Below are positions 7,552 to 27,540 of a stretch of DNA of 27,631 bases, one piece after another (position 1 is the first letter of the stretch; each line of letters starts with the position of its first letter). The translations under genes were made by a program, and so were the position numbers. The notes under the pieces are model-generated. The model was not told where the DNA came from and did no database searches. It saw nothing but the letters and a program-made list of their open reading frames with translations. The stretch lies in the IMG/VR virus record IMGVR_UViG_3300027980_000259, positions 1 through 27,631 of that record; one strand, given 5' to 3'. Source of the stretch: a virus.

Positions 7552-7579
7552 AAATTTAAAGGATGTTGAACAATGATAG

Positions 7580-7789: not shown

Positions 7790-7817
7790 TTGCGATTGTT
7801 TCTGCCGATGTTATAAT
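7790..7817 (+). promoter_or_regulatory. Sigma70-like promoter
   Basis: TTGCGA at 7790-7795 and a perfect TATAAT at 7812-7817 are separated by 16 bases. It drives the small gene pair starting at 7877. The 16-base spacer is the same as in the two other promoters of this segment. Confidence 0.75.
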
Positions 7818-7828
7818 TAGTGCTCAGT

Positions 7829-7845
7829 GCTGTGACGGTCACAGC
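7829..7845. promoter_or_regulatory. Operator-like inverted repeat at the transcription start
   Basis: GCTGTGAC and GTCACAGC form an 8-base perfect inverted repeat around a single G, about 12 bases downstream of the -10 box. It is well placed for a repressor, or as a hairpin at the 5' end of the transcript. Confidence 0.45.
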
Positions 7846-7876
7846 GGACAACACTTTCCCAAAAGGGAACAACATC

Positions 7877-8155
7877 ATGGCTGTGCGATACATCACAGAG
7901 GAAAACGGTATCACGCCACAATTTGGTTTGTATCACCGAAAGACGGATCAGTCCAAAGTGTGGCATTTTATCAATATTCGATGTGCTGGTCAGAAGTTTT
8001 GGTTTGCGAAGCATGCCTTTACAGCACATAGACGACGATGGACAAACCGCAAGGGCGAAAGAGTCTGGCAGGTTGTAATCGACAACCATCTTCAAACGTG
8101 GGACGGGGATTCTGCCCACGTAATCATTTGGCCACGGGAGTTGAAAGATGCGTGA
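7877..8155 (+). CDS. Small protein of unknown function
   Basis: This 92-residue protein is rich in Trp, His and Arg (KTDQSKVWHFINIRC, RRRWTNRKGERVWQVV) and is probably a compact beta fold. The start at ATG 7877 follows AAGGGAA by about 9 bases. It is the first gene of its transcription unit and overlaps the next gene by 8 bases. No family is recognised. Confidence 0.6.
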   Translation: MAVRYITEENGITPQFGLYHRKTDQSKVWHFINIRCAGQKFWFAKHAFTAHRRRWTNRKGERVWQVVIDNHLQTWDGDSAHVIIWPRELKDA

Positions 8156-8285
8156 ATTGTTTGAGTTGCCGATTCTGATCGGAGTGTCAGTTGTGCTGGC
8201 GTTTGTCATGCCGATTTGGGGACTGGTGTTGCTGTCAGAATGGACAGTGACCAAGATTGAAGAAGTTATCGACTACCTCGCGTGA
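8148..8285 (+). CDS. Single-pass membrane peptide
   Basis: This 45-residue product begins MRELFELPILIGVSVVLAF and has one strong transmembrane helix (about 7-29) and a short charged tail (EWTVTKIEEVIDYLA). GGGAG lies 8 bases before the ATG, inside the end of the preceding gene, so the two are coupled. It could be a small holin-like or membrane-regulating peptide, but there is no evidence beyond hydrophobicity. Confidence 0.55.
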   Translation: MRELFELPILIGVSVVLAFVMPIWGLVLLSEWTVTKIEEVIDYLA

Positions 8286-8299
8286 GGCGGTTTCACACC

Positions 8300-8330
8300 A
8301 CCCGCGGGGAAACCCGCGGGTCACTTTTAG
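8300..8330 (+). terminator. Hairpin terminator with GAAA loop
   Basis: A nine-pair perfect stem (ACCCGCGGG/CCCGCGGGT) with a GAAA tetraloop is followed by CACTTTTAG. The short T run makes termination partial at best. It lies only about 10 bases before the next gene's ribosome binding site and may instead protect transcript ends. Confidence 0.65.
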
Positions 8331-8339
8331 GGGTTTGAT

Positions 8340-8630
8340 ATGCTTGTTTCTATTGTGGACGACCGAAGTGAAATTCAGCTTGCCGCTACTTTACGCCGTG
8401 CCGGATATGCTTCCGTACTGGATTCGGATGTCTGGGAACTGCAATTCCCTGACGGGATCAATCGGAATGTGATCGGGTTTCACGTTGTTGATTGTGACGC
8501 GTTTATCACGGCGTTTCAGTCAGCATTGCCACACACAATGCAATGCGGCGTTGACCGCACAACGGGTGGTGCCCGCATTCATGCTCGTTTCAATGCTGAC
8601 ACCGTAGCACGGACAGAAGTTGAATTGTAG
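8340..8630 (+). CDS. Small protein of unknown function
   Basis: This 96-residue soluble protein begins MLVSIVDDRSEIQLA. It has alternating beta and helical stretches and a His/Cys-containing middle. The ATG follows AGGGG by 7 bases. It stands between two strong hairpins as a single-gene unit. No family is recognised. Confidence 0.6.
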   Translation: MLVSIVDDRSEIQLAATLRRAGYASVLDSDVWELQFPDGINRNVIGFHVVDCDAFITAFQSALPHTMQCGVDRTTGGARIHARFNADTVARTEVEL

Positions 8631-8645
8631 GGTTGAGTCTGAATC

Positions 8646-8685
8646 AAGACCCGCGGGTTTTCCCGCGGGTCTTCTTCTTTGATAA
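8646..8685 (+). terminator. Strong intrinsic terminator
   Basis: A twelve-pair perfect stem (AAGACCCGCGGG/CCCGCGGGTCTT) with a TTTT loop is followed by CTTCTTTG. The CCCGCGGG core is the same as in the hairpin at 8300. Confidence 0.8.
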
Positions 8686-8699
8686 CTTGCGCGTGCGAG

Positions 8700-8749
8700 C
8701 GGACGACAAATGTCCGCGAGCGAATATATTCTTATCAATAGGAATGGTC
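8700..8749. promoter_or_regulatory. Composite regulatory block, copy 1 (dyad core plus ATTCTTAT...GGAATGGTC)
   Basis: The core GACAAATGTCCGCGA (8705-8719) is followed, 8 bases later, by ATTCTTAT-C-AATAGGAATGGTC (8728-8749). The same two elements with the same spacing recur at 9957-10001; the second element differs at one base. A further inverted repeat, TCCCAAAATTGGGA, lies just downstream (about 8752-8765). The block sits about 40-85 bases upstream of a sigma70-like promoter, so it is likely a binding site for a phage regulator. Confidence 0.6.
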
Positions 8750-8788
8750 TTCCCAAAATTGGGAGTAAAAAATTCTTATAAGGCTATG

Positions 8789-8816
8789 TTGACAACGGGA
8801 ATTCACTCGTTACTAT
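8789..8816 (+). promoter_or_regulatory. Sigma70-like promoter
   Basis: TTGACA (perfect -35, 8789-8794) and TACTAT (8811-8816) have a 16-base spacer, upstream of the gene starting at 8875. Confidence 0.7.
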
Positions 8817-8874
8817 GGTATCAGTTCACAGCACTTCGTTGTGATTCGCTTAACTCTTGTTGAAAGGTTCCGCC

Positions 8875-9342
8875 ATGCTCCCATCTTCTCGCGCTGTTAG
8901 CATTCCCGTGTTTGCTGAAATGATGGATTCGTTGGACATCAAGGTTCCGAATGGAGTCTACTGTGAAGACTTCGACTATCATGCTGTTATTCGTGACGGT
9001 CGTCTCGTTGGCGGCATGGTCATGGAATACTATCACAGCGGAGTTCGTGCTGTGTGGTTCGATACTACATCGTACTGGGTTGATGATGATCAACGCTGTT
9101 GTCTCCTGAGGGTTCTCATGAGGGAATACACAGGAACCGAGAGCATCAACTGGGTTGGAATCATGCTTGATATCGAAGATCGGAGACAGCATCCGATCAT
9201 GAACGAGCTTATGCAATCTGCCTTGCGACATCGTGATTTGTGGGTGACTGGCAACAATGCATACTTTCGATTGTGGCCGAATCGTGATCATGCTGAGTTT
9301 CGTTGCTGTCGTCCCGTCATCCGCAAACTGAGTGTCAACTGA
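8875..9342 (+). CDS. ORFan protein
   Basis: This 155-residue protein begins MLPSSRAVSIPVFAEMMDSL. The start at ATG 8875 follows AAAGG. The mixed alpha/beta sequence (YHAVIRDGRLVGGMVMEYY) has the flavour of an acetyltransferase-type sheet, but the acetyl-CoA binding motif is not seen, so no function is assigned. The Cys pairs (RCC twice) are too few for a zinc site call. The gene is monocistronic, with its own promoter and a hairpin after it. Confidence 0.6.
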   Translation: MLPSSRAVSIPVFAEMMDSLDIKVPNGVYCEDFDYHAVIRDGRLVGGMVMEYYHSGVRAVWFDTTSYWVDDDQRCCLLRVLMREYTGTESINWVGIMLDIEDRRQHPIMNELMQSALRHRDLWVTGNNAYFRLWPNRDHAEFRCCRPVIRKLSVN

Positions 9343-9357
9343 TTCAGATCTCTGATC

Positions 9358-9386
9358 GGGGCCGGGGATGTTCCTCGGCCCCACGT
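9358..9386 (+). terminator. Hairpin terminator
   Basis: GGGGCCG pairs with CGGCCCC around an 11-base loop and is followed by ACGTTTTGTT. Confidence 0.65.
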
Positions 9387-9416
9387 TTTGTTCCCTGATT
9401 TACAAGGAAAGACAAC

Positions 9417-9587
9417 ATGAGCACCAAAGAACGGGTTTATCGGCCGGAGCTTTACGCCCGGTACAGTGTCGAGAATGCTGACGGAATTTATTTCGCCACT
9501 CAGGCTACATCCGAGCAGCATGCTCGGAACAAGTTTCGGGACGAACATCCCGAAGTGACGATCCTGAGGGTGCGGAAGCAGGATTGA
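9417..9587 (+). CDS. Small basic protein of unknown function
   Basis: This 56-residue product begins MSTKERVYRPELYARYSVEN and ends VTILRVRKQD. AAGGAAAG lies a few bases before the ATG. It is compact, basic and soluble, and is flanked by hairpins on both sides. No family is recognised. Confidence 0.55.
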   Translation: MSTKERVYRPELYARYSVENADGIYFATQATSEQHARNKFRDEHPEVTILRVRKQD

Positions 9588-9600
9588 TCGCAACAACTGG

Positions 9601-9636
9601 GAGCATCGGAGATCGGCCGGTGCTCTTTCTTTTCTA
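9601..9636 (+). terminator. Intrinsic terminator
   Basis: A nine-pair stem (GAGCATCGG/CCGGTGCTC, one T-G pair) is followed by TTTCTTTTCT. Confidence 0.75.
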
Positions 9637-9650
9637 TTGGAGGGTGTTCA

Positions 9651-9887
9651 ATGATTGCTTTAATTGTGTTCGATAATTATGACCGTCCGTGTTACGAAAC
9701 ACTCTTTGACGGTCCGTGGGGATTTGTCCCGTGGTGCTCTTTTGATCATCAACCCGGATCATTGTTTGACTATACTTGGCGGCTGTTTGATGACGGCCTT
9801 GAAAATGGTCCGGGCACAAAACGACTGAGACCGGCACGATTCTGGGATCCGCGGCATATGGATTTTGTGCCATTTCCCATAATCTGA
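9651..9887 (+). CDS. Small aromatic-rich protein of unknown function
   Basis: This 78-residue protein is rich in Trp, Phe, Asp and Pro (DGPWGFVPWCSFDHQPG, ARFWDPRHMDFVPFP). It starts 8 bases after GGAGGG. The composition suggests a small globular protein with an exposed binding face. No family is recognised. It is a single-gene unit between two terminators. Confidence 0.55.
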   Translation: MIALIVFDNYDRPCYETLFDGPWGFVPWCSFDHQPGSLFDYTWRLFDDGLENGPGTKRLRPARFWDPRHMDFVPFPII

Positions 9888-9908
9888 GGCTTATTCAGTA
9901 AATCGAAC

Positions 9909-9933
9909 CCCCGGAGATATCTCCGGGGTTCTT
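9909..9933 (+). terminator. Palindromic terminator
   Basis: The perfect 20-base palindrome CCCCGGAGATATCTCCGGGG is followed by TTCTTA. Confidence 0.7.
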
Positions 9934-9950
9934 AGCTCAGTGTCACGTGA

Positions 9951-10100
9951 TCGCGGGACAAATGTCCGCGATTTTCGAGATTCTTATAAATAGGAATGGT
10001 CCTCTCAATTTCGGGATTCTCAATATTGAGAAAGATATTCTCATTATTCGGATTCTCAATAGTGACAATTTAGATTCCTATAAATGAGAACAAGCTGTGA
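9951..10100. promoter_or_regulatory. Operator cluster upstream of the LexA-like gene
   Basis: This holds copy 2 of the composite block (GACAAATGTCCGCGA at 9957-9971; ATTCTTAT-A-AATAGGAATGGTC at 9980-10001). A run of TTCTCA half-sites follows: the perfect palindrome TTCTCAATATTGAGAA (about 10017-10032), TTCTCATTATTC, TTCTCAATAGTGACAA and an inverted ATGAGAAC. It lies 35-180 bases upstream of the promoter. Autoregulation by the LexA-like protein encoded just downstream is the simplest reading (inference). Confidence 0.6.
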
Positions 10101-10133
10101 TTTTGTCCATTGTACAAAAGTAAAATTTTATTG

Positions 10134-10161
10134 TTGACGATCCTAGAACAGTCGTTAGAAT
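10134..10161 (+). promoter_or_regulatory. Sigma70-like promoter of the LexA-like gene
   Basis: TTGACG (10134-10139) and TAGAAT (10156-10161) have a 16-base spacer. The leader to the ATG is about 50 bases. Confidence 0.7.
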
Positions 10162-10219
10162 AGGGGCAGAACGCGGCAATCGACCGTGTCAAACACTTCT
10201 TTTTTCAGGAGTTCACACG

Positions 10220-10696
10220 ATGAAACGCAAGGCAACGGAAAACAAACTCACAGAACGACAGGCGAGATTTTTGGACGTTTACTGCAAATTCGTTTTCGAG
10301 AACGGAAAGCCACCCGCGATGCGGACGATGGGAACATTTTTTCCCAACGATAAGACCGGTCGCCCGATGGCAGTCAATGGTGTTAAGGAAAAATTGAACG
10401 AAGTCACCGCGAAGGGATATCTTGAACTGAGAGATCAGGACAAGGCTGCGCCCTATGCAATCACCCACTTTTCACGCTGGGACAATCGTTTCGGGGTTTC
10501 GTCGGATGAAAACCGGCGAATTCTGGTTTTTCCCATTGACGGGAAAATCGTGGTCCAAATTGTGAAAAACGGTGAAATCGAAGAGCGTGAATTCACGCAC
10601 GAACAGGCTCTGCTGACAGCGAAGCATGCTAGCGTTCAGTTGTGGATCGGCAACCCGTATAAGAATTTGGCAGAAATTGCAATTGAAAAATTGTAG
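10220..10696 (+). CDS. LexA-like winged-helix regulator without peptidase domain
   Basis: In 158 residues, the N-terminal 75 follow the LexA DNA-binding domain: LTERQARFLDVYCKFVFENG, KPPAMRTMG as the start of the recognition region, and NGVKEKLNEVTAKGYLEL as the wing-side helix. The remaining 80 residues form a beta-rich domain with no Ser-Lys peptidase signature, so it cannot self-cleave like true LexA. AGGAG precedes the ATG by 7 bases. The upstream TTCTCA cluster and a LexA/DinR-type box GAACATTTGTTC at 13086 are candidate targets. It is probably a repressor controlling this segment; target assignment is inference. Confidence 0.7.
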   Translation: MKRKATENKLTERQARFLDVYCKFVFENGKPPAMRTMGTFFPNDKTGRPMAVNGVKEKLNEVTAKGYLELRDQDKAAPYAITHFSRWDNRFGVSSDENRRILVFPIDGKIVVQIVKNGEIEEREFTHEQALLTAKHASVQLWIGNPYKNLAEIAIEKL

Positions 10697-10716
10697 AATC
10701 TGCCGATGGTTTTCTT

Positions 10717-10747
10717 GCGGCCGGGAATCGTATCCCGGCCGCTTTTT
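10717..10747 (+). terminator. Strong intrinsic terminator
   Basis: A ten-pair perfect stem (GCGGCCGGGA/TCCCGGCCGC) with a 6-base loop is followed by TTTTT. Confidence 0.85.
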
Positions 10748-10769
10748 CTCTCTTTTAGGAATTTCCAAA

Positions 10770-11114
10770 ATGAGTGTTGTTTTCTTTTTGTATCCTATTG
10801 ATTCCGCCGATTCTTCGCAGCCGGTCCACCTGTTCGAAGTGGATCGGAAAATTGCCAAATTTATGGGTGTCGAATTCAGTACAGAGCACTGGTGCTGCAA
10901 TTGGTACAATGTTATTGGTTTTCTCGTCGCTATGGGGTCTCCTCTCGAAAGTGAGAAAATGATTGAGAAAATCGAAGAATGGTATGAGCCAATTTCGGGG
11001 CTGGAAAAACTCGAAGACCGCGAAGCAGCAAAACAGGAAATGCTGAAAATTCTCAATTTTATGAGAGAAAACTGGCGTTCTTCCAGTTATCGGGAACCGT
11101 GGGCAAAAATGTGA
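10770..11114 (+). CDS. ORFan protein
   Basis: This 114-residue protein begins MSVVFFLYPIDSADSSQP. The start at ATG 10770 follows TTAGGA. It has a hydrophobic first strand, then a mostly helical, charged body (EKMIEKIEEWYEPISGLEKL). No family is recognised. It is a single-gene unit between strong hairpins, directly after the LexA-like gene. Confidence 0.6.
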   Translation: MSVVFFLYPIDSADSSQPVHLFEVDRKIAKFMGVEFSTEHWCCNWYNVIGFLVAMGSPLESEKMIEKIEEWYEPISGLEKLEDREAAKQEMLKILNFMRENWRSSSYREPWAKM

Positions 11115-11129
11115 TTCTCAAAAATAAGA

Positions 11130-11157
11130 AAGGGTGGCAATCGGGCCACCCTTAAGG
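11130..11157 (+). terminator. Hairpin terminator (weak T run)
   Basis: AAGGGTGG pairs with CCACCCTT around an 8-base loop and is followed by AAGG rather than a T run. It may end transcription poorly, or act as an RNA-end stabiliser. Confidence 0.5.
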
Positions 11158-11177
11158 GGCCAGAGTGCTTAGTGCGC

Positions 11178-11198
11178 TCGCGGGACAAATGTCCGCGA
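11178..11198. repeat. GACAAATGTCCGCGA dyad, copy 3
   Basis: TCGCGG precedes the core GACAAATGTCCGCGA. GGACA and TGTCC pair around AA, and the flanking TCGC/GCGA extends the dyad with one bulged G. It lies immediately before iteron array 1, as copy 4 does before array 2. Confidence 0.7.
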
Positions 11199-11205
11199 GA
11201 GTGAA

Positions 11206-11290
11206 CATTTGTACAGTGCAAAGATGTCCACCCTATTCTTGTACAGTGTCACTTTGTACATTGATAGTCTGTACAGTGTTCAATATTCCA
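11206..11290. repeat. 15-bp iteron array 1
   Basis: GTACA or a one-base variant begins at 11211, 11226 (GTCCA), 11241, 11256, 11271 and, degenerate, 11286: an exact 15-base period over six units. The array opens with GAACATTTGTACAGT. It lies just upstream of the leader of the large ORFan gene. Phased direct repeats of this kind are typical of replication iterons, partition sites or cooperative operators. The reading as protein-binding sites is inferred. Confidence 0.75.
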
Positions 11291-11313
11291 GTAAAAATCT
11301 TTCCCGAATTGTG

Positions 11314-11386
11314 TGGATTTTGCCGGACAGCTTGCTACAATGGGTTTCCCGGCAGTCTGCCGGGCGGCTGGACATGTGTTCAGCCG
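11314..11386 (+). promoter_or_regulatory. Probable promoter and hairpin leader of the ORFan gene
   Basis: TACAAT at 11336-11341 has only a poor -35 (TGGATT at 11314, 16 bases upstream), which would suit an activator bound to the iterons just upstream. The leader carries two hairpins: CCCGGCA-GTC-TGCCGGG (11348-11364), and CGGCTG with CAGCCG (11365-11386). Confidence 0.4.
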
Positions 11387-11418
11387 ACCGTTTCTCTCTT
11401 GTTTTGAGGAGTGTACAG

Positions 11419-13029
11419 ATGAACAGTTTTCCAACCGGCGTTTCCATGACAGGCGTTACACGTGAACAAATGTCAATGCAGGCATTCCGCCAGCTTCCCA
11501 CAATTCGTGCGGCAGAAGATACCGGAATTCCAGTGTACATCGGTTCAGTCTCCGATATGGCTGAACATCTGTCTATGGACAGCGAATGTCCAGCGTGGGT
11601 CGATGACGTTACCGATCATTGGTACTGTGCTGAACATATGCTCAATATGGACAACGCGTGGACAACTGACCAGCGTATGCTTCGGTTCACACTGTACAGG
11701 ACACGCACCGGATTCATGGCACGACCGACAGTGTACAGATGTACAATGCCGCTTCGTGCTGCAAGGTGCTTGTTCGTGGCACTGTCCAATTGTTCACCTG
11801 AACCGAATCTCGACAACGGGATTCACTATACAGATGAACAGATCAAGATCCTGACCACTATACGTGCGATCAGTGATCCGTTTGTGGTCGATTTCTGCAA
11901 TGCACAGAACCGGAAGCGGGGTGAACGCGTGTCCACCAAGCTGAATTCGATGCGAGAACGGACCACTGTACATCATTCCACTGACGGGACCGCGAATCAT
12001 GGTCGGGGTGGAAAGATGTTCAATCCGGATCGGCAGAGAGATGGACGCGTGTCCAATGGTCTACAACTTCCAGACCAAATCCTGAGTGAGGACGACATTG
12101 AAGACGCTTGCCAGCGAGCGTTTTTGATGAACAATTGTTCAACACTGTGCAGGTGGTTCGATCCGACTGACCGCGGAAAAGCCTATCTGGTCGCACGTAC
12201 AGTTGAACGTGTGGACAACAAGGTTCACGTGGTCGATATGGAAACGGTCAGCCGACGTGCTGATCAAAAGAACACTGTACAGAATCGCAAGATGAAAGAG
12301 ATTCGATTCCGTTGTCGAGAAACTGGACACGAGTTCAGTATTCGGTCACAGTCCGAATCCTATGTACGGAAGTTCAGTGAGATGACTTCGCTCGAAGGCC
12401 CGCTTGAACATCCGATCAGTTATGAAGAATCGACGGGAATCTTCGGGACATTTGTCCAGCAGAAACCGACGTGGATTCAAATTGGACAATCGTCCAGACC
12501 ACAGGAAGTAGTGTACACCCGTGCACTGCGAAACCTGAAGTTCATCGGTGTAACTTTGTACACTATGCTGAATCGTCAGTCTCGTGAGAAGCACGTGGAC
12601 CTGTACATGAATACAGTCCGCCGAACTCACGACGAATACGGCAAGCTGAACAAGTTTCCACTTCATGAGATGATGATGGACGATTCGCTGAACTGGACAG
12701 ATAACCAGTTGGCTCTTTTGCAGAGTCAGATCGAACACGCTGATCATCTGTCCAGCATGTTTCCGAATGTCGATCAGCGAAACCGACGCGTGGCACTGTA
12801 CAATTGTCTACGAAAGAACGGCGACGCCGATCTCGGAATTGCCGCTGATCATAAGTTCAGGCGGATCAAGCGTTCAGCATACTTCGCTCGCCTGAAGGAC
12901 CTGTACAAGAGTCTAGAGAAGAAAATGGAGGACCACGTCTGCATGGACGAATGTACAATGTTCCAATACACTGGACAGGTGCCCAGTCATCGGCGGCATG
13001 GTGGTTTGAACCATCGCAGAGACAGTTGA
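11419..13029 (+). CDS. Large ORFan protein encoded in TGTACA-dense DNA
   Basis: This 536-residue protein begins MNSFPTGVSMTG. I chose ATG 11419, which follows GAGGAG by about 7 bases; the open frame extends upstream through the iteron array but has no ribosome site there. The protein is hydrophilic, with many Arg, His and Cys residues, and no nuclease, ATPase or polymerase motif is recognised. Its DNA carries at least twelve TGTACA sites (11534, 11693, 11732, 11740, 11967, 12276, 12512, 12557, 12602, 12797, 12902, 12952) and many TGTCCA, TGGACA, TGTTCA and TGAACA. Iteron arrays flank it on both sides. A site-specific DNA-binding protein, such as a replication or partition initiator acting on these repeats, is my guess and nothing more. 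Confidence 0.65.
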   Translation: MNSFPTGVSMTGVTREQMSMQAFRQLPTIRAAEDTGIPVYIGSVSDMAEHLSMDSECPAWVDDVTDHWYCAEHMLNMDNAWTTDQRMLRFTLYRTRTGFMARPTVYRCTMPLRAARCLFVALSNCSPEPNLDNGIHYTDEQIKILTTIRAISDPFVVDFCNAQNRKRGERVSTKLNSMRERTTVHHSTDGTANHGRGGKMFNPDRQRDGRVSNGLQLPDQILSEDDIEDACQRAFLMNNCSTLCRWFDPTDRGKAYLVARTVERVDNKVHVVDMETVSRRADQKNTVQNRKMKEIRFRCRETGHEFSIRSQSESYVRKFSEMTSLEGPLEHPISYEESTGIFGTFVQQKPTWIQIGQSSRPQEVVYTRALRNLKFIGVTLYTMLNRQSREKHVDLYMNTVRRTHDEYGKLNKFPLHEMMMDDSLNWTDNQLALLQSQIEHADHLSSMFPNVDQRNRRVALYNCLRKNGDADLGIAADHKFRRIKRSAYFARLKDLYKSLEKKMEDHVCMDECTMFQYTGQVPSHRRHGGLNHRRDS

Positions 13030-13045
13030 CATCTGTACAGCAACC

Positions 13046-13080
13046 CTCCCCTGTACGCTTGTACAGGGGAGCGGTTTGTT
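13046..13080 (+). terminator. Hairpin terminator containing the GTAC motif
   Basis: An eleven-pair perfect stem (CTCCCCTGTAC/GTACAGGGGAG) with a GCTT loop is followed by CGGTTTGTTTG. The stem itself is built from TGTAC sites, so it may be both terminator and binding site. Confidence 0.65.
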
Positions 13081-13085
13081 TGACT

Positions 13086-13147
13086 GAACATTTGTTCTCC
13101 TGATCGTTTGTACACTGTACAGGCGGTCGCGGGACAAATGTCCGCGA
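13086..13147. promoter_or_regulatory. LexA-box-like dyad, paired TGTACA and dyad copy 4
   Basis: GAACATTTGTTC (13086-13097) has the GAAC-N4-GTTC form of Gram-positive LexA boxes. Two GTACA starts 7 bases apart follow at 13110 and 13117. The fourth copy of the core GACAAATGTCCGCGA is at 13133-13147. All share the eight-base core ACAAATGT, or its complement, with the start of iteron array 2. Confidence 0.55.
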
Positions 13148-13155
13148 CAGATGAA

Positions 13156-13280
13156 CATTTGTACACTTAACACTTGTCGACCCCACCTCTGTACACCTCA
13201 CATCTGTATACTCTACACTTGTACACCTTACGCTTGTACACTGTACACCTTTCAAGTGTCCGCACAACGTTTGTACAGTG
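13156..13280. repeat. 15-bp iteron array 2
   Basis: GTACA or a one-base variant begins at 13161, 13176 (GTCGA), 13191, 13206 (GTATA), 13221 and 13236: exact 15-base spacing. A second register, offset by 7, continues at 13243, 13258 (GTCCG) and 13273, again 15 apart. It opens with GAACATTTGTACACT, nearly the same start as array 1. A translated frame through the array gives a five-residue LYT-type repeat, which I take as a by-product of the DNA period. Confidence 0.75.
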
Positions 13281-13398
13281 TTCAAAATTACAGCGTCAAA
13301 TCCTGCCAGAAAAACCGGACAACATACCATCTATAGGTTGTAGGGTGGCGACAGAGACAACGACAAACAACGACACAAACAACGAAACGGGGGAAACG

Positions 13399-13731
13399 GT
13401 GAGAAAACGGTTGAAAATCCCGCGAAAAGCGGAAAACCGGCGGTTCACAATCGTTGAACCCAACGGCAAAAGTCACGAAAAGTGTGCGATTGCTGACCTG
13501 TTTCGTGAGAACGGTCGTTTGTGTGTCCGGTTCGCGGCGTGGAATGGCACGGTCATTCCAAAAGTGTTCTTCGGTGACGAAGTAGCACAACTTTTTGTCG
13601 ATTCTATTAAGGATCGCAAAAAAATTGAAGTTTTCACGGGAATCTCGTGGAAACAGAAGCGGCGGAAAGTCAGGAGTGATCGTGTGATTACCGAAGACAT
13701 TCTGTCTGGATTTTTGTTCGGCGAATCGTAG
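13399..13731 (+). CDS. Small basic ORFan protein
   Basis: This 110-residue protein begins (V/M)RKRLKIPRKAENRR. The GTG at 13399 follows GGGGGAA by about 5 bases. An in-frame GTG at 13345 is possible but less well placed. The protein has a strongly basic N-terminus, then a compact domain (AIADLFRENGRLCVRFAAWN) and a basic tail (KQKRRKVRSDR), suggesting nucleic-acid binding. It is expressed downstream of iteron array 2. No family is recognised. Confidence 0.55.
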   Translation: MRKRLKIPRKAENRRFTIVEPNGKSHEKCAIADLFRENGRLCVRFAAWNGTVIPKVFFGDEVAQLFVDSIKDRKKIEVFTGISWKQKRRKVRSDRVITEDILSGFLFGES

Positions 13732-13774
13732 TAGTCGGACAGTTTTGTTCACCTCATTTTGAGGAGATTTTCTC

Positions 13775-14383
13775 ATGGCTGTGTCGAAACAGACTGAGGA
13801 ATGGTTCGCAGCAGCTTTGGAAAATTCCATTGCTGCAATGCGTAAGGTTCGTGGTGTGAAAGACTACGAAGGGAAGGATGATACAATTTTCATGGCATAT
13901 GTGCTCCAGCACTTTGCCGGATATTGTCTCGTCAACGAAGAGACGCAGATGAATACTGCGTGCCGAATGATCGGCTGGGACGCAAAGGTGGAAGATCCCA
14001 AACTCGGCAAGAGTCCACGCAATTTCTTTCGGGAACAGTGGACTAAGGCAGTGGAATTCGCTCGTGCTTCGCTGTATGACAAGGTTTGTCGGAAGTATTT
14101 CGGCGGCATTGTCGATGCTCGCGGTGCCGGAATCGTCAATCAGGCGGTTCGGAACGCGATGGAAAAGAAGATGGATACCGTCAAGTTCAAGGACGAAGAC
14201 GGTGATGATACGGTGGATCATCCCATCAAGGCTTTGGAAAAGATCGGTTTTCGGAATCTCACCGAAGAACTGTACGCGGAAGCTGCGGAAGATTACCGTC
14301 AGCAGTTGAAGGCGTATACTACGCTGCGGAGCAAACGTGCTCCGAATCTGACTGGCGATGTGCTTGGCGGTTTCTTCCAGTAG
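13775..14383 (+). CDS. ORFan helical protein
   Basis: This 202-residue protein begins MAVSKQTEEWFAAALENSIA and is mostly helical and charged. The ATG follows GAGGAG by 8 bases. The sequence before it, CCTCATTTTGAGG, can form a small hairpin that hides the ribosome binding site, so translation may be regulated. No catalytic motif or family is recognised. The gene is followed by a hairpin terminator. Confidence 0.6.
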   Translation: MAVSKQTEEWFAAALENSIAAMRKVRGVKDYEGKDDTIFMAYVLQHFAGYCLVNEETQMNTACRMIGWDAKVEDPKLGKSPRNFFREQWTKAVEFARASLYDKVCRKYFGGIVDARGAGIVNQAVRNAMEKKMDTVKFKDEDGDDTVDHPIKALEKIGFRNLTEELYAEAAEDYRQQLKAYTTLRSKRAPNLTGDVLGGFFQ

Positions 14384-14404
14384 TCAGGCGTCGGCTGAAC
14401 AATT

Positions 14405-14430
14405 CCGCCCGGTATTCACCGGGCGGGATT
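14405..14430 (+). terminator. Hairpin terminator
   Basis: A nine-pair perfect stem (CCGCCCGGT/ACCGGGCGG) with an ATTC loop is followed by GATTTAC. Confidence 0.6.
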
Positions 14431-14488
14431 TACATGAAAAGAGAACAATCGGCGGACATTCGCAAGCTGTGTTTCTTAGGAGTGTTTC

Positions 14489-14752
14489 ATGTTGGATAGT
14501 CATTTGAATAGAGATTGGTTCGTCACAGTTGTTAATGCTAATGGTAGTGCAACATTGTGGGGTCCGTTCAATAATTCAACTGACGCTCAAGAGGTTGTTG
14601 ACAGAGAATCGGCGGCTGGATCGGCAGAATTACACTCGATTCAGCGACCGATGCAATTAGGTGCAGCAAACAAACTGTGCTTGAATTGCGAAGTCACTTG
14701 CGACAATCCGAATTGCAGTCATCATTTTGAGACTGGCATTCCGGTTGCATAA
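14489..14752 (+). CDS. Small protein with C-terminal Cys/His cluster
   Basis: This 87-residue protein begins MLDSHLNRDWFVTVVNANGS; AGGAG lies 7 bases before the ATG. The N-terminal half is a beta-rich domain. Residues about 64-79 (CLNCEVTCDNPNCSHH) hold four Cys and two His and probably bind zinc. Its function is unknown. It is the last gene before the RNA region. Confidence 0.6.
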   Translation: MLDSHLNRDWFVTVVNANGSATLWGPFNNSTDAQEVVDRESAAGSAELHSIQRPMQLGAANKLCLNCEVTCDNPNCSHHFETGIPVA

Positions 14753-14754
14753 CA

Positions 14755-15380
14755 TTGGCGGATAGCCGATAAGTGATCCCTGTTTGGATCAGTGGTAAGG
14801 CATAAGGTGCATTTTGTTGGTTGATGCTGATAGTCTTGCACCTTGGGATTTCGCCGATAAAAGCTATTGCGGCAATACTGCAAGAATTTTTGTTCGGCGA
14901 TTTTGGAAAGAACCGAGTTGAGGGTTCGATTCCCTACTCAGTCAGTATTCTAGAGGACTTCTCAGATTGATATCAGTTTGAGAATGTTCCGACTATACTA
15001 GAATCGGCTATAATGGCTCATTTGGTAATGGCTCGGTTCGATTTTGTTTGTCGGCGATTTGCCGACTTTTGTGCTGTGTCAATATTCGGCCGAGTATTGA
15101 TTAGACAGTATCACGGCGAAGTAATTCGGGAATCCTCAAAAGCCTACGGGTGAGTCCAGCGATATCCAACATTCCCGCGTTCTGATTGATTGGGATCAGT
15201 CGCCGTTTCTATCGGCAAGATAGCCGAAATCCTACAATAGCCACTCGGAATCTAAAAATATATATGGGTTCAGTGGACACTAACTTCTGGATTTCCGCCG
15301 TCTGTTCTTTCTCCTGTAATTCAGGGGTAGTCCCGTTTATTCTACGGCAGTGGTTGGGACGAATTTTTCCCTGCCGTAAT
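14755..15380 (+). ncRNA. Hairpin-rich non-coding region, possible large structured RNA
   Basis: About 625 bases have no convincing gene. Perfect or near-perfect helices include TGATCC/GGATCA (14774/14786), AAGGTGCA/TGCACCTT (14804/14837), AATACTG/CAGTATT (14874/14943), TTCTCA/TGAGAA (near 14960), GTCGGC-GATTT-GCCGAC followed by TTTT (about 15050-15069), TCAATATT...AGTATTGA (15079-15100), CGGGAAT/ATTCCCG (15127/15171) and TACGGCAG/CTGCCGTA (15343/15371). TCGGCTAT at 15004 can pair with ATAGCCGA at 15220. The region runs straight into the tRNA at 15381. A TATAAT at about 15009 could start a separate transcript. Whether it is one RNA or several is not clear. Confidence 0.5.
14874..14949 (+). other. 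tRNA-like minihelix (T-arm stacked on acceptor-like stem)
   Basis: AGGG-TTCGATT-CCCT (14921-14935) has the T-stem and T-loop of tRNA. It is clasped directly by ACCGAGT (14912-14918) and ACTCAGT (14936-14942), six of seven pairs. There are no D or anticodon arms between the strands. The whole lies inside the outer AATACTG/CAGTATT helix. It looks like a tRNA acceptor/T-arm mimic or a decayed tRNA. Confidence 0.4.
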
Positions 15381-15452
15381 CAGCCTGTGGTGTAATTGGT
15401 AGCATTGCCCACCGTTTATTGGGTAGGTCTGGTTCGAATCCAGCATGGCTGA
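15381..15452 (+). tRNA. tRNA with 8-nt anticodon loop, perhaps tRNA-Asn(GTT)
   Basis: The D-arm GTGT-AATTGGTA-GCAT, the T-loop TTCGAAT with CTGG/CCAG and the outer acceptor pairs CAGCC/GGCTG are clear. The anticodon stem GCCCA/TGGGT encloses eight bases, CCGTTTAT, rather than seven, with C in place of the usual U33 if the anticodon is GTT. Mismatches occur at the base of the acceptor stem and at the first T-stem pair. CCA is not encoded. It may be an expanded-loop tRNA or a decayed gene, and its identity is uncertain. Confidence 0.6.
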
Positions 15453-15493
15453 CTCGTGTTAAATTTCACATTCGTTCAGTTTTGGAGAATCAA

Positions 15494-15853
15494 ATGCAGT
15501 TGCATACTCTGGAAAGCATCATCCGGAAATCTGATACGGAACAGGAAGCTTGTGTTTTTCTGGAAGTTTTCGGTGAGAATCCGAGAGATGTGATCTTGAA
15601 GGTTTATCGGCGGAAGTCGGATGCTAACACAGAGCTGAATCGCATTGCGCAAATGCGTGAACGCTTCATCGAAGATGCTGATATTCAGGCGGACTTGTCT
15701 GCTGCTCAGGGAATGTTCGAATCCGAATACATCCGATCAGAAGAAATTCTGCGGTTCTTTCGTAAGACTGCCGAAAGTATTTCGAGGTGGGGAAGTCGGC
15801 CGATGTCGAAAGCTCGTTACCAACGACTGCGAAAGCAGATCGAAGAAATCTGA
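15494..15853 (+). CDS. Helical ORFan protein
   Basis: This 119-residue protein begins MQLHTLESIIRKSDTEQEA; the start at ATG 15494 follows TTGGAGAA. It is helical and charged, with a coiled-coil-like middle (ELNRIAQMRERFIEDADIQ) and a basic tail (SKARYQRLRKQIEEI). It lies 40 bases after the tRNA and is probably co-transcribed with it. No family is recognised. Confidence 0.6.
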   Translation: MQLHTLESIIRKSDTEQEACVFLEVFGENPRDVILKVYRRKSDANTELNRIAQMRERFIEDADIQADLSAAQGMFESEYIRSEEILRFFRKTAESISRWGSRPMSKARYQRLRKQIEEI

Positions 15854-16297
15854 ACGACGGGGCTTCTGCAAACAACAGAAGTCCGCAAAGCAAACGGGAT
15901 AACGGATAGGGTAGGATTAAGAATTTTTACGTTCTAAGTCCGACCGTTGTGAGGCCAAGTGAGGCCAAGTACATTTTCGTGCAAAACTCCCGTGTTTTTG
16001 ATTTTCAGTTGAGACCACCCCCGGGGAAATTTTGACTACCCTCTTGGGGAATTTTCTTGTCGAAATGACAAAATGTCAAAAAGCCCCGTGTTTTTGTGGC
16101 CGCACCTTTGTCGCCTTTTGACCAAATAAAATCGTGCAAAAGTGATTGAGTTTGAGGCAAAAGTTGCGAAAAAACGCCTGTTTTTGGGGGTTTTTTGGTG
16201 TGAGTGTGGAGTTTTTCACAGAACAAAGCAAAATCCACCCCTTAACACAACACTATACAGAGTGTGCTTAATGTCTTTCTTTTAGGAGTTTCTTGTT
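15854..16297. other. Non-coding regulatory stretch with short tandem repeats
   Basis: There is no gene here. It contains a nine-pair hairpin (GGGCTTCTG/CAGAAGTCC, about 15858-15882), an exact tandem GAGGCCAAGT x2 (15951-15970), and an imperfect 21/22-base tandem (GACCACCCCC-GGGGAAATTTT at 16013, GACTACCCTCTT-GGGGAATTTT at 16034). It also has the dyad TGACAAAATGTCA (16066-16078) and several GTTTTT runs. A TATACA near 16255 is a weak -10 candidate for the operon starting at 16298. It probably serves as a promoter/operator region for that operon. Confidence 0.45.
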
Positions 16298-16453
16298 GTG
16301 TTTGATGAATGGATAGAGGGCTTTATTAGCTCTTATGAGTTCATTGATTTGAGCACTACAATTGCTTATGGTTGGTCTAGCTCAAAAGGTCGCTCACGGC
16401 ATAAAACACGGGAATTTCTGAATGACCCTCTATCTTTTGCTGACTCTCAATGA
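16298..16453 (+). CDS. Small protein, GTG start
   Basis: This 51-residue product begins (V/M)FDEWIEGFISSYEFIDL and ends LNDPLSFADSQ. The GTG at 16298 follows TTAGGAG by about 9 bases; no in-frame ATG exists nearby. It is the first gene of a long operon of tiny overlapping genes and overlaps the next gene by 32 bases. No family is recognised. Confidence 0.55.
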   Translation: MFDEWIEGFISSYEFIDLSTTIAYGWSSSKGRSRHKTREFLNDPLSFADSQ

Positions 16454-16616
16454 GGCTGAAAATTGCAAAGTTTGGAGACCGTTTCAGGTCCCTCAGATTG
16501 TCGCAGAAGAGGTTTTAATTCAGCACGGTTGGAACCCTCAATCTGCCTACGAAGCCTGTCAGAACTTAAACTGGGACTTTATACGAGTCTCTGAAGAAGT
16601 ACAGATAGGATTGTAG
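16422..16616 (+). CDS. Small protein of unknown function
   Basis: This 64-residue acidic protein begins MTLYLLLTLNEAENCKVW and has a UBA-like helical centre (VAEEVLIQHGWNPQSAYEAC). The resemblance to a ubiquitin-associated three-helix bundle is visual only. The ATG lies inside the preceding gene, with GGGAA about 10 bases upstream. The family is unknown. Confidence 0.5.
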   Translation: MTLYLLLTLNEAENCKVWRPFQVPQIVAEEVLIQHGWNPQSAYEACQNLNWDFIRVSEEVQIGL

Positions 16617-18328: not shown

Positions 18329-18399
18329 GCCGGAAAGATGAGAGGAACACATAACAGATTTCCATCTGTAGTTCGTAGGTTCGAATCCTACTTCCGGCT
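18329..18399 (+). tRNA. tRNA with irregular anticodon loop, perhaps tRNA-Gly(TCC)
   Basis: The acceptor stem GCCGGAA/TTCCGGC is perfect (seven pairs), and the T-arm GTAGG-TTCGAAT-CCTAC is perfect. The D-arm is short (ATG/CAT) with a GG-containing loop. The anticodon stem ACAGA/TCTGT encloses only six bases, TTTCCA; opening one pair gives eight, ATTTCCAT. If TCC is the anticodon it reads Gly. The loop size is abnormal in either fold. CCA is not encoded. Confidence 0.7.
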
Positions 18400-24035: not shown

Positions 24036-24155
24036 ATGTTTGAATCTCCTTTGTTTTGGTTTGTTATACTGATGATCATTGCGTTAGATTTTCAACGTAA
24101 GGCATCTAAAGCTCAAGAAACTCTTGAAGATATAAAGAATAAGAATGACTCCTGA
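24036..24155 (+). CDS. 39-residue membrane peptide
   Basis: MFESPLFWFVILMIIALDFQ followed by a charged helix (KASKAQETLEDIKNK): one transmembrane segment with a cytoplasmic tail. AGGTGG lies just before the ATG. It overlaps the next gene by 11 bases. Confidence 0.5.
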   Translation: MFESPLFWFVILMIIALDFQRKASKAQETLEDIKNKNDS

Positions 24156-24357
24156 ACAACTTGGTCAATTTGTTATAGAGATTTATACGCAAGATCCACC
24201 AGATCATTTACGGCGTGGACAATGGGCGTATAATCTGTACCGTGCAAGGTATAAGAATATGCCTGATGTTACAAATATGAAGTGTGATCCTTTTTACAAG
24301 GATGAAAATCTTGGTTTATTTTTCGAATTTATTTCTAAGCATGTAACGTGCGAATAA
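24145..24357 (+). CDS. Small helical protein
   Basis: This 70-residue protein begins MTPEQLGQFVIEIYTQDPPD and has an aromatic-rich middle (GQWAYNLYRARYKNMP) and a helical end. It is coupled to the preceding membrane peptide. No family is recognised. Its end lies 16 bases before the tmRNA-like RNA. Confidence 0.5.
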   Translation: MTPEQLGQFVIEIYTQDPPDHLRRGQWAYNLYRARYKNMPDVTNMKCDPFYKDENLGLFFEFISKHVTCE

Positions 24358-24373
24358 CGTTTGTCCGAACTGG

Positions 24374-24506
24374 GGCCTGACTGGTTTTGATTATTCGTGT
24401 AAATAGATATCTACAGGTGGGACTGTAACGTAGATAAATGCTCAAGCAAAAGACTACGGATATTCTAGTAGCGGGTAAGACTTCGGTTCGACTCCGAACA
24501 GGTCCA
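24374..24506 (+). ncRNA. Short tmRNA-like RNA (tRNA-like domain with extended P2 helix)
   Basis: GGGCCTG (24374-24380) pairs with CAGGTCC (24499-24505) as a seven-pair acceptor stem, with discriminator A. The T-arm TTCGG-TTCGACT-CCGAA is perfect. The bases after the 5' acceptor strand, ACTGGTTTTGATT, match the stemless D-loop of tmRNA (tGG.TT.GA). A P2-like rod follows: TTATTCG/CGGGTAA (24392/24472) and TAGATATC/GATATTCTA (24405/24459). Inside are hairpins ACAG-GTGGGA-CTGT and CGTAG/CTACG. At 133 nt it is far shorter than bacterial tmRNA (roughly 250-400 nt). An in-frame GCA to TAA stretch (AKDYGYSSSG) lacks the usual hydrophobic AA end. It may be a reduced tmRNA or a new tRNA-like RNA. Confidence 0.55.
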
Positions 24507-24509
24507 ATT

Positions 24510-24671
24510 ATGAGAACTTCAGCAGAACTTGAAATTGAAATACAGTTGATTTGGGATGAATTGCGTCGACTTGGTAATGCAATTGATATGCTTTCTTTAG
24601 AAGACATTGATGCTTTTTTCAGCAAAGGATTTAATGTAAATGAAGTGGAACAAAACAAAACCTCTGAATAA
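24510..24671 (+). CDS. Small helical protein
   Basis: This 53-residue acidic helical protein begins MRTSAELEIEIQLIWDELRR. The ATG lies 3 bases after the tmRNA-like RNA, whose 3' strand (AGG in CAGGTCC) could act as its ribosome site, so RNA folding and translation would compete. No family is recognised. Confidence 0.5.
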   Translation: MRTSAELEIEIQLIWDELRRLGNAIDMLSLEDIDAFFSKGFNVNEVEQNKTSE

Positions 24672-24798
24672 TTATGTTGATGCACAAATGAAAGCTGCAG
24701 AATTGTCTGATAAGTTTCAGACTAAAATTAAACGTTGTGGACCAAGGGGTTCTCAGTTTACTGTTAAATTTCGGGAGATGAACAATGCCAATGACTGA
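24640..24798 (+). CDS. Small basic protein
   Basis: This 52-residue basic protein begins MKWNKTKPLNNYVDAQMKAA and ends FTVKFREMNNAND, with CGPRGSQ in its centre. AAAGGA precedes the ATG. It overlaps the preceding gene by 32 bases and the next by 14, placing a basic protein directly before a highly acidic one. Confidence 0.5.
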   Translation: MKWNKTKPLNNYVDAQMKAAELSDKFQTKIKRCGPRGSQFTVKFREMNNAND

Positions 24799-24925
24799 TG
24801 AAGAAGACGATTGGATTGAGGGTGAAGAAGATTGGGATGAAGAAGATAATTATTGGGACGAAGAAGACGAAGATTTTTATGACGATGAAGATGACTATTA
24901 CGAAGACGAAGATGAGGATTGGTAA
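24785..24925 (+). CDS. Extremely acidic 46-residue protein
   Basis: MPMTDEEDDWIEGEEDWDEE and onward: after residue 4, nearly all residues are Asp, Glu, Trp or Tyr, with no Lys or Arg. GGGAG lies 7 bases before the ATG. Short polyacidic proteins can mimic nucleic acid or chaperone basic proteins. The basic protein encoded just upstream, overlapping by 14 bases, is a natural partner (inference). It overlaps the next start by one base. Confidence 0.6.
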   Translation: MPMTDEEDDWIEGEEDWDEEDNYWDEEDEDFYDDEDDYYEDEDEDW

Positions 24926-25332
24926 TGATTTTACTATTAGATGATTTTCGTGGACTGACAAGGGTTCTCAATGAAGATATGCATAAACGTCTTAATCTTC
25001 GACCATTTACAGTAAAAGAACGTGAAATCATTGTGAACTCAGGAGTAAAAGATACCTTTTGGTTTAAATCATATGATCCAGCAATGGCATTTCTAAATGA
25101 TTTGAATGCGGGTCTTGAGGAGTGGAATGTTTTACCAGATTTGTTTATCGTGGGTAATTCGAAGTTTCATATCCCAGAATCTGAATCGTGGGAAAGTTTT
25201 CTAGAAGTCGTTTGCAATAAAACACAAAGACGGTTTGAAGCTTTTATGTGTGCTACAAGTAATCTAGAACGAGGTCGTGCACAAAGGATTTATAATGCTT
25301 TCATTAGATCTCTTGGTAATTCCGGTAAATAA
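24925..25332 (+). CDS. Receiver-like protein of unknown function
   Basis: This 135-residue protein begins MILLLDDFRGLTRVLNEDMH. The opening LLLDD, a middle FKSYDPAMAFLNDL and PDLFIVGNS loosely follow the beta-alpha pattern of small receiver-like domains in phages (LDD.R ... A...L ... D.I), but the phosphoacceptor region is degenerate. The C-terminal half is helical and basic. The fold guess is weak. It overlaps the HTH gene by 38 bases. Confidence 0.4.
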   Translation: MILLLDDFRGLTRVLNEDMHKRLNLRPFTVKEREIIVNSGVKDTFWFKSYDPAMAFLNDLNAGLEEWNVLPDLFIVGNSKFHIPESESWESFLEVVCNKTQRRFEAFMCATSNLERGRAQRIYNAFIRSLGNSGK

Positions 25333-25522
25333 ATTTGTCTTTACAAGTGCTGATATTGCAGCTATAATGGGTGTTGCACCCAGAACAGTTGCAAAATGGA
25401 TTGATGCAAAGCGAATGAAGGGTTCTAGAAGGCACGGGACATTGATTCGTTTGGTTACTTTGCCTAATTTGTTGACCTTTTTGCGTACGCATAACTACAA
25501 ATTTACACAAGAAGAAGTATAA
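25295..25522 (+). CDS. Excisionase/MerR-type HTH protein
   Basis: This 75-residue protein has FTSADIAAIMGVAPRTVAKW at about 18-37, then IDAKRMKGSRRHGTLIRLVT and a final helix. This follows the HTH_17/excisionase pattern (helix, turn, recognition helix, beta wing, trailing helix). Such proteins bind DNA as architectural or regulatory factors; with no integrase visible, a transcriptional role is more likely than excision. AAAGGA precedes the ATG at 25295. The stop overlaps the next ATG by one base. Confidence 0.65.
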   Translation: MLSLDLLVIPVNKFVFTSADIAAIMGVAPRTVAKWIDAKRMKGSRRHGTLIRLVTLPNLLTFLRTHNYKFTQEEV

Positions 25523-27540
25523 TGGATATTCCTTTGACCCTTCTCAAAATTGAGAATGAGCTAAAACAATCTGGTTATTCGGCAAGATTATTTATGGCTG
25601 GCGGTTGTGTAAGAGATATTTTGCTTGGTTATGAACCAAAGGATTGGGACGTTGAGGTCTATGGTGTTCATTCGGCAGATTTGATTGAGACTTTGTCAAA
25701 ATATGGTAAAGTAAGTTCTCACGGCGAATCTTTCTTTGTACATAAGTTGACGAATGATGACGGCGAATTTGATTTTAGTTTGCCGAGAAGAGAAAAGAGC
25801 ACTGGACCGTCACATAAAGATTTTAAAATAATCGCCGATAAAGACACCAGTACTAAAGAAGCTTGTCTTCGTAGAGATTTTACTATAAATTCTATGTTAA
25901 TGAGTTTTGATGGCACTATTATTGATCATTACGGCGGTCAAAAAGATCTTAAAGATGGTATCTTGCATCCAACTTCTGTAAAGTTTTGTGAGGATCCATT
26001 GCGTGTTCTTCGTGCGGCACAATTTCTTGCACGATTTCAATTTGAACCATCTGCAGATTTGATAACATATTCTAAAATTCTGCATAGAGATTATTATACA
26101 ATCTCAAAAGAGAGAATCTGGGGAGAGTGGAAAAAGATTGCAACTGCTATTCAGCCGAGTCGAGCATTGCAATTTTTGAATAATACTGGTTGGCTATCGT
26201 ATACGCCTGCTCTTCAGCAAATGATTTTTACGCCGCAAGATCCCGAATATCACCCAGAAGGCGATGTCTTCACACACACGTGTCATGTTGTTGATATGAT
26301 GTATGCGATTATTGCACAAAGAAATATTTTTAATACAGATTATAGTATTCAAATGTTTTTTGCGGCATTGTGTCATGATATTGGTAAGTACAAAACTACC
26401 AAATTTCATAAAGGCCATATTGCCTCACACAATCATGAAAAAATCGCCGATGACATTATTGATGATTTATTTAACCAAATTGGTGTTCCAGATATGTATG
26501 TTAGACCGGTTAAAGGTTTAACTAAGTATCATATGCTTGATAGCAATATGAAACTATCATCAAAAAATATTAAGAAATTAGCGTTCAAACTTAGTGAGTT
26601 TGGCATAAATATTTCAGAATTATTGATGCTTGTACGCTCTGATATGTTTGGTCGCGGTGATAAATTGCCAGATGATCAGCATGTTGCCTTCATTCATAAT
26701 TTAGAAGAGACTGCGTCTAAGCTTAATGTGTTGTTTAGCAAAGAGCCTCGAAAAGTCAGTGGTTATGATTTAATTAAAGCTGGTGCTAAACCGGGACCAG
26801 AAATGGGTCAAGCTTTGGATCATGTATATCGTGTTCAATTGAGTAATTCTGATTTTGATAAAGAGAAGTTGATAAAAGATGGTATGGGTGTTTATAAATC
26901 TCTTATAATGACTCCGGAAGAAAAAATACTTAAGGTAGAAATTGGAAATATAAGAGATAAGTATAATAAAAATAACACCTTTAAGAAAACAGAAAAAAGA
27001 ATGAAATCTGCTTTGAGGAATGGTAAAAAATTTATTACATTTTTCAGAGTAAATGAAGAATATGGATTTTTAAGTCAATGGTTTAGATGTAATTTTAAAA
27101 TGATGCTTGGTGGAGAGGAATGTAAATTTACATCTGCTGAACAAGCTATGATGTTTATGAAAGCAAATTTGTTTGATGATCATCAAATTAAAGAAAGAAT
27201 TTTAAAGACACACGATCCAAATGAAGTTAAAAAATTAGGAAGACAGGTAAAAAATTTCAATGAATATATGTGGAGTGTATCTAACAAAAAAATAGTTAAT
27301 TCCATTAATATGTTGAAATTTAATCAGAATGAGGATCTTAAAGAAAGATTGCTAGCAACTAATGATACAGTATTGATTGAAGCTAGTCCTTATGATAAGA
27401 TTTGGGGTGTTGGTTTATCTGCCGATGATCCTAGGATAGGTGACCCAGATAAGTGGTTGGGTAAAAATTTGCTTGGGCTTTGTCTGATGAAGGTTAGAGA
27501 TAGAATTCTGTTTGAAAAAGAAATTCAGGAGATATCATGA
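25522..27540 (+). CDS. CCA-adding tRNA nucleotidyltransferase-HD-NADAR fusion
   Basis: Three parts are visible in 672 residues. (1) A class II poly(A)/CCA nucleotidyltransferase: GGCVRD at 27-32, catalytic D41-x-D43 in KDWDVEVYG, RRDFTIN at 117-123 and DPLRVLRAAQFLARF at 158-172. (2) An HD domain: H252 region and CHDIGK at 284-289, as in E. coli Cca. (3) A NADAR domain at about 505-662: YGFLSQW, TSAEQAMMFMKA with E540, LGRQVKNF, W584 and WGVGL...DPDKWLGKNLLG. Part 1 would rebuild CCA ends of the phage tRNAs, none of which encode CCA. NADAR enzymes strip ADP-ribose from guanine in DNA, or from NAD-derived metabolites. The fusion is unusual. The start overlaps the HTH gene's stop and the stop overlaps the next ATG. 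Confidence 0.88.
   Translation: MDIPLTLLKIENELKQSGYSARLFMAGGCVRDILLGYEPKDWDVEVYGVHSADLIETLSKYGKVSSHGESFFVHKLTNDDGEFDFSLPRREKSTGPSHKDFKIIADKDTSTKEACLRRDFTINSMLMSFDGTIIDHYGGQKDLKDGILHPTSVKFCEDPLRVLRAAQFLARFQFEPSADLITYSKILHRDYYTISKERIWGEWKKIATAIQPSRALQFLNNTGWLSYTPALQQMIFTPQDPEYHPEGDVFTHTCHVVDMMYAIIAQRNIFNTDYSIQMFFAALCHDIGKYKTTKFHKGHIASHNHEKIADDIIDDLFNQIGVPDMYVRPVKGLTKYHMLDSNMKLSSKNIKKLAFKLSEFGINISELLMLVRSDMFGRGDKLPDDQHVAFIHNLEETASKLNVLFSKEPRKVSGYDLIKAGAKPGPEMGQALDHVYRVQLSNSDFDKEKLIKDGMGVYKSLIMTPEEKILKVEIGNIRDKYNKNNTFKKTEKRMKSALRNGKKFITFFRVNEEYGFLSQWFRCNFKMMLGGEECKFTSAEQAMMFMKANLFDDHQIKERILKTHDPNEVKKLGRQVKNFNEYMWSVSNKKIVNSINMLKFNQNEDLKERLLATNDTVLIEASPYDKIWGVGLSADDPRIGDPDKWLGKNLLGLCLMKVRDRILFEKEIQEIS

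Follow-up and report, generated by a model that had tools for sequence, protein, structure and literature searches.

Message-less tmRNAs are on record from phages and from organelles. Among phages, Hudson et al. (2014) list one tmRNA reduced to the tRNA-like domain (TLD), that of mycobacteriophage DS6A (PMC4131195). They describe a similar RNA, chargeable or not, as strongly inhibiting tmRNA, perhaps by titrating SmpB (Mao et al., 2009, cited in PMC4131195), and a DS6A-like tmRNA expressed in E. coli is reported there, and in a later article, to inhibit the endogenous tmRNA (PMC4131195, PMC11915505). Nawrocki et al. (2025) repeat the DS6A case and add plastid forms of about 65 bp as well as tag-less mitochondrial tmRNAs, the latter retained together with SmpB (PMC11915505). 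In the open-access literature we found no report of a broad family of message-less phage tmRNAs.

The DNA analyzed here, hereafter the window, is a complete IMG/VR virus record of 27,631 bases (IMGVR_UViG_3300027980_000259), in which the initial annotation had placed a 133-nt tmRNA-like RNA at positions 24374-24506. The RNA was borne out, but its start had been set one base late: it spans 24373-24506 on the plus strand, as do all its parts given below, and measures 134 nt including the discriminator A24506. The elements of the tRNA-like domain that had been proposed are all present in the sequence and in the predicted fold. The 5′ acceptor strand GGGCCUG (24373-24379), supported by folding and by covariation in homologues, forms seven pairs with CAGGUCC (24499-24505), which is followed by the discriminator (24499-24506 together); G24375 pairs with U24503 as G3-U70, and A73 is present. 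The D-loop ACUGGUUUUGA (24380-24390), aligned to RF00023 and to our model R1, lacks a D stem and carries the tmRNA motif UGG-UUYGA. The first strand of helix H2a, UUAUUCGU (24391-24398), is predicted to form 8 bp with GCGGGUAA (24471-24478), a GAC connector follows, and the T arm UUCGG-UUCGACU-CCGAA (24482-24498), with a 5-bp stem and the UUCRANU motif, is supported by the R1 alignment and by folding. The H2 rod is thus joined to the TLD, the covariation of H2a being that of homologues. CCA is encoded neither by this RNA nor by the three tRNAs of the window.

In place of the message and pseudoknot part, folding gave the two small hairpins that had been noticed. An internal loop (24399-24403) precedes the H2b strand UAGAUAUC (24404-24411), which pairs with 24459-24462 and 24464-24467, and the rod is capped by a three-way junction of hairpin 1, UACAG-GUGGGA-CUGUA (24412-24427), and hairpin 2, CGUAG...CUACG with an inner UGC-UCAA-GCA mini-hairpin (24429-24458). 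Comparison with longer homologues supports hairpin 1, which probably occupies the place taken in ordinary tmRNA by the PK1 stem, and hairpin 2 has a similar position in several of them. There is no room for PK2-PK4 in the window RNA. The fold has an energy of -39.7 kcal/mol (z -2.61), none of 200 shuffles being as stable, and a fold constrained to the TLD lies only 1.1 kcal/mol above this minimum.

ARAGORN, whose use had been recommended together with the Rfam models, called three ordinary tRNA genes elsewhere in the window and missed the message-less RNA, and the Rfam scan at gathering level did not report it; permissive Rfam scans recognized it as tmRNA at 13.9-14.6 bits, a weak match to RF00023 that does not reach the gathering score of 47. 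With R1, a covariance model built from 31 message-less RNAs with the window RNA and every longer homologue excluded from training, the window RNA reached 49.1 bits (E 1.5e-10), whereas ordinary phage tRNAs scored 16-21 bits and the tRNAs of the window 16-18 bits. An IUPAC tmRNA pattern matched the window at this RNA only, with 0 matches expected. As for a canonical tRNA, the window RNA has neither the combination of D stem and anticodon arm nor a match to RF00005 or by ARAGORN, and the 3′ half of the TLD does not precede its 5′ half in the gene, as it would in a permuted tmRNA. Elsewhere in the window, the anticodon loop of a 71-nt tRNA-like gene at 18329-18399 is unusual, and ARAGORN leaves it unassigned (anticodon 'tc').

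The same RNA was sought in related phages, as had been suggested, and the search returned a close relative and a large homologous family. The relative lies at the same locus, with 97% identity, on a 172-kb viral contig (L001; IMGVR 3300005590_000001) and differs from the window RNA at two positions: A24460G retains the pair with U24410 in H2b as G-U, and C24492T falls in the T loop. RF00023 aligned the relative end to end (model positions 1-374) at 38.4 bits (E 3.7e-13), with nearly all of the message domain deleted. No SmpB match was found on this contig, and a terminase search returned only members of this phage species and distantly related short contigs. Positions 735-2708 of L001, about 2 kb, lie between stretches that adjoin in the window (23926/23927), so that the two phages differ here by an insertion or a deletion.

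The family was collected by searching 2.9 million viral contigs with a degenerate pattern in which a short spacer joins the two ends of the tmRNA TLD. A strict scan with an exact 22-mer gave no match, and a first loose pattern gave eight false matches, mostly tandem tRNA T-loops, with one true relative, and was mended by excluding G in the D-loop motif. With a spacer of 72-102 the pattern matched 18 stretches of viral contigs, among which L034-L038, L040, L042, L044, L045, L047, L048 and the relative L001 were judged true; L039, L041, L043, L046, L049 and L050 were discarded as pairs of tRNAs or as segments from inside an ordinary tmRNA, as were the Flavobacteria matches L060, L067 and L076. 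Genome bins added four RNAs (L062, L070, L077, L079) to this longer class, which measures 115-140 nt and includes the window RNA. With a spacer of 28-58 at least 120 stretches of viral contigs matched; among the matches listed, these are TLD-only RNAs of 69-82 nt, with at least 61 unique sequences. Most family members tested scored above the RF00023 cut-off despite the absent message domain (48-118 bits, and 48-73 bits for the many 78-nt homologues that pass gathering), the longer-class RNAs all scored 42-56 bits with R1, and ARAGORN found none of the family RNAs tested.

Several longer-class RNAs, namely that of the window, L035/L040/L045, L038, L070 and L079, follow a common plan, in which H2a, an asymmetric internal loop and H2b lead up to a three-way junction; one of its arms is a small hairpin at the place of the PK1 stem, the other a hairpin whose long loop is rich in A. 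The highest RF00023 score of 118 bits belongs to L062, from a Burkholderiaceae bin, which reads as an ordinary proteobacterial tmRNA with the tag and the later pseudoknots probably cut out. A full-length tmRNA is also present in the bins of L070, L077 and L079, and the short form is therefore an extra copy there. Among TLD-only RNAs, the H2 cap AAAGCCGCA(C/T)GCGGA is identical in phages with differing H2a stems (L201 2501-2578, L202 2501-2579, L203 1001-1078, L093, L133, L144), suggesting that the loop itself is recognised by something. Two phage records (G031, with L145, and G024, with L100) hold two TLD-only RNAs each, about 1.3 and 1.9 kb apart.

Since the window's own lineage amounts to two near-identical sequences, covariation of the window RNA's helices is not direct and comes from these homologues. 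Acceptor pairs 4-7, which the search pattern left unconstrained, were always paired in 65 unique sequences, with two to five pair types each; in the same set the H2a pairs showed three to six types and the T-stem pairs were kept with one exception. Over 31 sequences (alignment A3, with length differences in loops and D-loop padded with N), 96.8% of cells were paired and 210 changes affected both sides of a pair, against 61 in shuffles and 31-47 with the partner strand slid. The doubt raised beforehand, that the acceptor and the "P2" rod (our H2a) might show no covariation in homologues, did not materialize: the acceptor, H2a and T helices covary strongly. When third pairs with U70 and C70 were compared, the G3-U70 pattern matched at least 120 stretches of viral contigs and the G3-C70 pattern a single one; the alanine identity pair G3-U70 is therefore kept, and, as judged from these sequence comparisons, selection acts strongly on this pair and on the TLD. 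The window RNA is very probably a message-less tmRNA. Three readings had been offered, a minimal tmRNA, a decoy of ribosome rescue or a new tRNA-like RNA; the homologue covariation best supports the first two, whereas the last is unsupported, because the kinship with tmRNA is clear and a message-less phage tmRNA, DS6A, has been reported.

The family extends to cultured phages of laboratory hosts. The Streptomyces phages LuckySocke, GiJojo, pSt2308, Alone3, Shaeky, BRock and Samisti12 match TLD-only RNAs, mostly in tRNA arrays, at sites that carry no RNA annotation, and the five of these seven that were scored with R1 reached 50-71 bits. Streptomyces phage Riptide (L215) has a TLD-only RNA at 2204-2280 (51.9 bits with R1) and, at 13768-14034, an annotated full tmRNA with the degradation-type tag ANSKFAFALAA. 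No other tRNA was found in 63 of 81 loci of the TLD-only, 78-nt form, within the stretch examined; the TLD-only RNA is therefore not simply part of a tRNA set. In counts that include near-duplicates, it lies about 120 bases upstream of the major capsid gene in 18 loci and about 230 bases downstream of the prohead protease gene in 15, always co-oriented.

In the window, a called 70-aa ORF (24145-24357, plus strand) ends 15 nt before the RNA, and the ATG of the next gene, a 53-aa ORF (24510-24671, plus strand), begins 3 bases past it, as had been remarked. One kilobase downstream, domain search identified a CCA-adding tRNA nucleotidyltransferase (PolyA_pol head and HD) fused to NADAR in one 672-aa protein (25522-27540, plus strand), which could supply CCA to the window RNA and to the three phage tRNAs. 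A small, very acidic ORF with long Asp/Glu/Tyr runs lies between, at 24786-24926. The region 7000-16500 has a G+C content of about 0.48, against 0.35 in the flanks, and contains long unassigned ORFs in which Cys and Thr abound (e.g., 12866-13336).

We propose, with a probability of roughly 0.6, that the window RNA acts as a decoy, or inhibitor, of host trans-translation. The support consists of its structure, the homologue covariation, the homology to tmRNA, G3-U70 and the lack of a recognisable shared tag or later pseudoknots; the presence of similar or still shorter versions in dozens of phages fits a decoy, and the DS6A-like molecule is reported to inhibit tmRNA. On this view the locus is a tmRNA minus its mRNA-like domain, with TLD and H2 rod kept and two vestigial hairpins as a cap. 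The RNA would be excised from a polycistronic phage transcript, its 5′ end presumably made by RNase P, and receive CCA, perhaps from the phage's own enzyme. It would then bind SmpB, be charged with alanine and compete with the full host tmRNA for SmpB, AlaRS or EF-Tu, or for stalled ribosomes at their A site; with no message to resume on, trans-translation would be damped or blocked during infection, to the probable benefit of the phage. A search of 14 phage records, some of which are fragments, found no SmpB gene, and SmpB of the host would have to be the partner. Riptide speaks against a pure inhibitor, a full tagged tmRNA and a TLD-only RNA in one phage being an odd combination.

The strong selection on G3-U70 and the TLD would also suit a rescue factor working without message, in which the alanyl-TLD with SmpB takes over the nascent chain and frees the ribosome untagged, as may occur in mitochondria whose tmRNA lacks a frame; tag-less mitochondrial tmRNA is indeed kept alongside SmpB (PMC11915505). 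We consider this unlikely, as the DS6A molecule, which resembles the window RNA, is described in the accounts cited above as inhibiting rather than rescuing. Release of the chain without a stop codon would moreover be required, for which we know of no step.

The tight placement of the RNA between genes (15 nt and 3 nt), the 78-nt form found, co-oriented, between the protease and the capsid gene in one phage lineage, and a possible Shine-Dalgarno sequence for ATG 24510 within the acceptor strand (AGG, 24500-24502), a site that would be lost when the RNA is excised, could together indicate that the TLD merely provides an RNase P site separating or stabilising neighbouring mRNAs. Such a site, however, needs neither G3-U70 nor the UGG-UUYGA D-loop nor H2a, yet all are kept where an ordinary tRNA would do, and this makes mere punctuation an improbable account.

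We regard it as no more probable that the RNA works as a miniature tmRNA with a short tag, on which the ribosome would resume at a GCU or GCA of hairpin 2 and read (AQ)AKDYGYSSSG up to UAA. An in-frame reading of this kind, (AQ)AKDYGYSSSG-stop or AQAKDYGYSSSG-stop, is present in the window RNA, and its AUAAAUGC context is similar to the region where permuted tmRNA resumes (consensus UAAaUGC in RF04321). In the groups of L035 and L045 the reading is GCA AAU ACG ... UAG/UAA, and tags as short as 2 aa have been reported from other bacteria (PMC11915505). The frame, however, is not shared with the homologues: no start, frame or stop is common across the longer class, and L034 and L037 have no GCN-initiated frame with a stop ahead of the TLD. 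In the window the frame runs through a strand of H2a and would stop at the final pairs of this helix, with the UAA in the H2a 3′ strand at the H2a/TLD border. Differences between L035 and L045 in this region, compared by eye, track the pairing within hairpin 2 and H2b and not third codon positions, and the relatives of 69-82 nt are too short for a tag. A tag in the window RNA is thus unlikely.

That an integrating element brought along an attachment-site remnant from the ssrA gene of a host is very improbable: ssrA genes are common integration sites (PMC11915505, PMC10865867), but both halves of the TLD are retained and its helices covary, and a tyrosine integrase occurs in just 2 of 25 records, about 15 and 36 kb from the RNA, which argues against it.

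Beyond the window, the decoy reading may be extended, tentatively, to message-less tmRNAs as a widespread anti-rescue device by which many unrelated phages shut down or re-tune host trans-translation, in some cases from the capsid operon and in some, Streptomyces phages like Riptide, beside a full tmRNA of their own. If message-less RNAs do inhibit trans-translation, ribosome rescue would become a recognised target in phage-host conflict. For annotation, ARAGORN, a standard tool, overlooks these message-less tmRNAs.

Among known systems, the tag-less mitochondrial tmRNAs and the plastid tmRNAs of Mallomonadaceae, of about 65 bp, resemble the window RNA in being tmRNAs without a reading frame, but they are organellar and the mitochondrial ones are usually permuted (PMC11915505). 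The permuted two-piece tmRNA of RF04321 (e.g., Synechococcus phage BUCT-ZZ01) has similar TLD segments (GCGGGUAAGAC...GGUUCGACUCC) and an AUAAAUGC stretch, whereas in the window the acceptor 5′ strand comes first and the gene order is unpermuted. With the one-piece tmRNA of RF00023 the window RNA has in common the acceptor with G3-U70, the D-loop motif, the T arm and the order H2a, internal loop, H2b; it differs in having no recognisable shared tag frame, no PK2-PK4, a score below gathering and no ARAGORN call. Like the DS6A tmRNA, it is phage-encoded and pared down to roughly the tRNA-like domain, without the message domain, as its score with the TLD-only model indicates; compared by description, it comes from an unrelated phage and has about 55 nt more, comprising H2b, the three-way junction and the two hairpins. 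At 134 nt it thus exceeds the size of little more than a TLD (69-82 nt in our set), and because of this length, H2b and the two extra hairpins we term it a variant of the DS6A kind. Where DS6A was the one phage example on the literature record, the sequences compared here show a widespread phage family, with at least 61 distinct TLD-only sequences and a longer class, cultured Streptomyces phages included, of which the window RNA is a longer variant.
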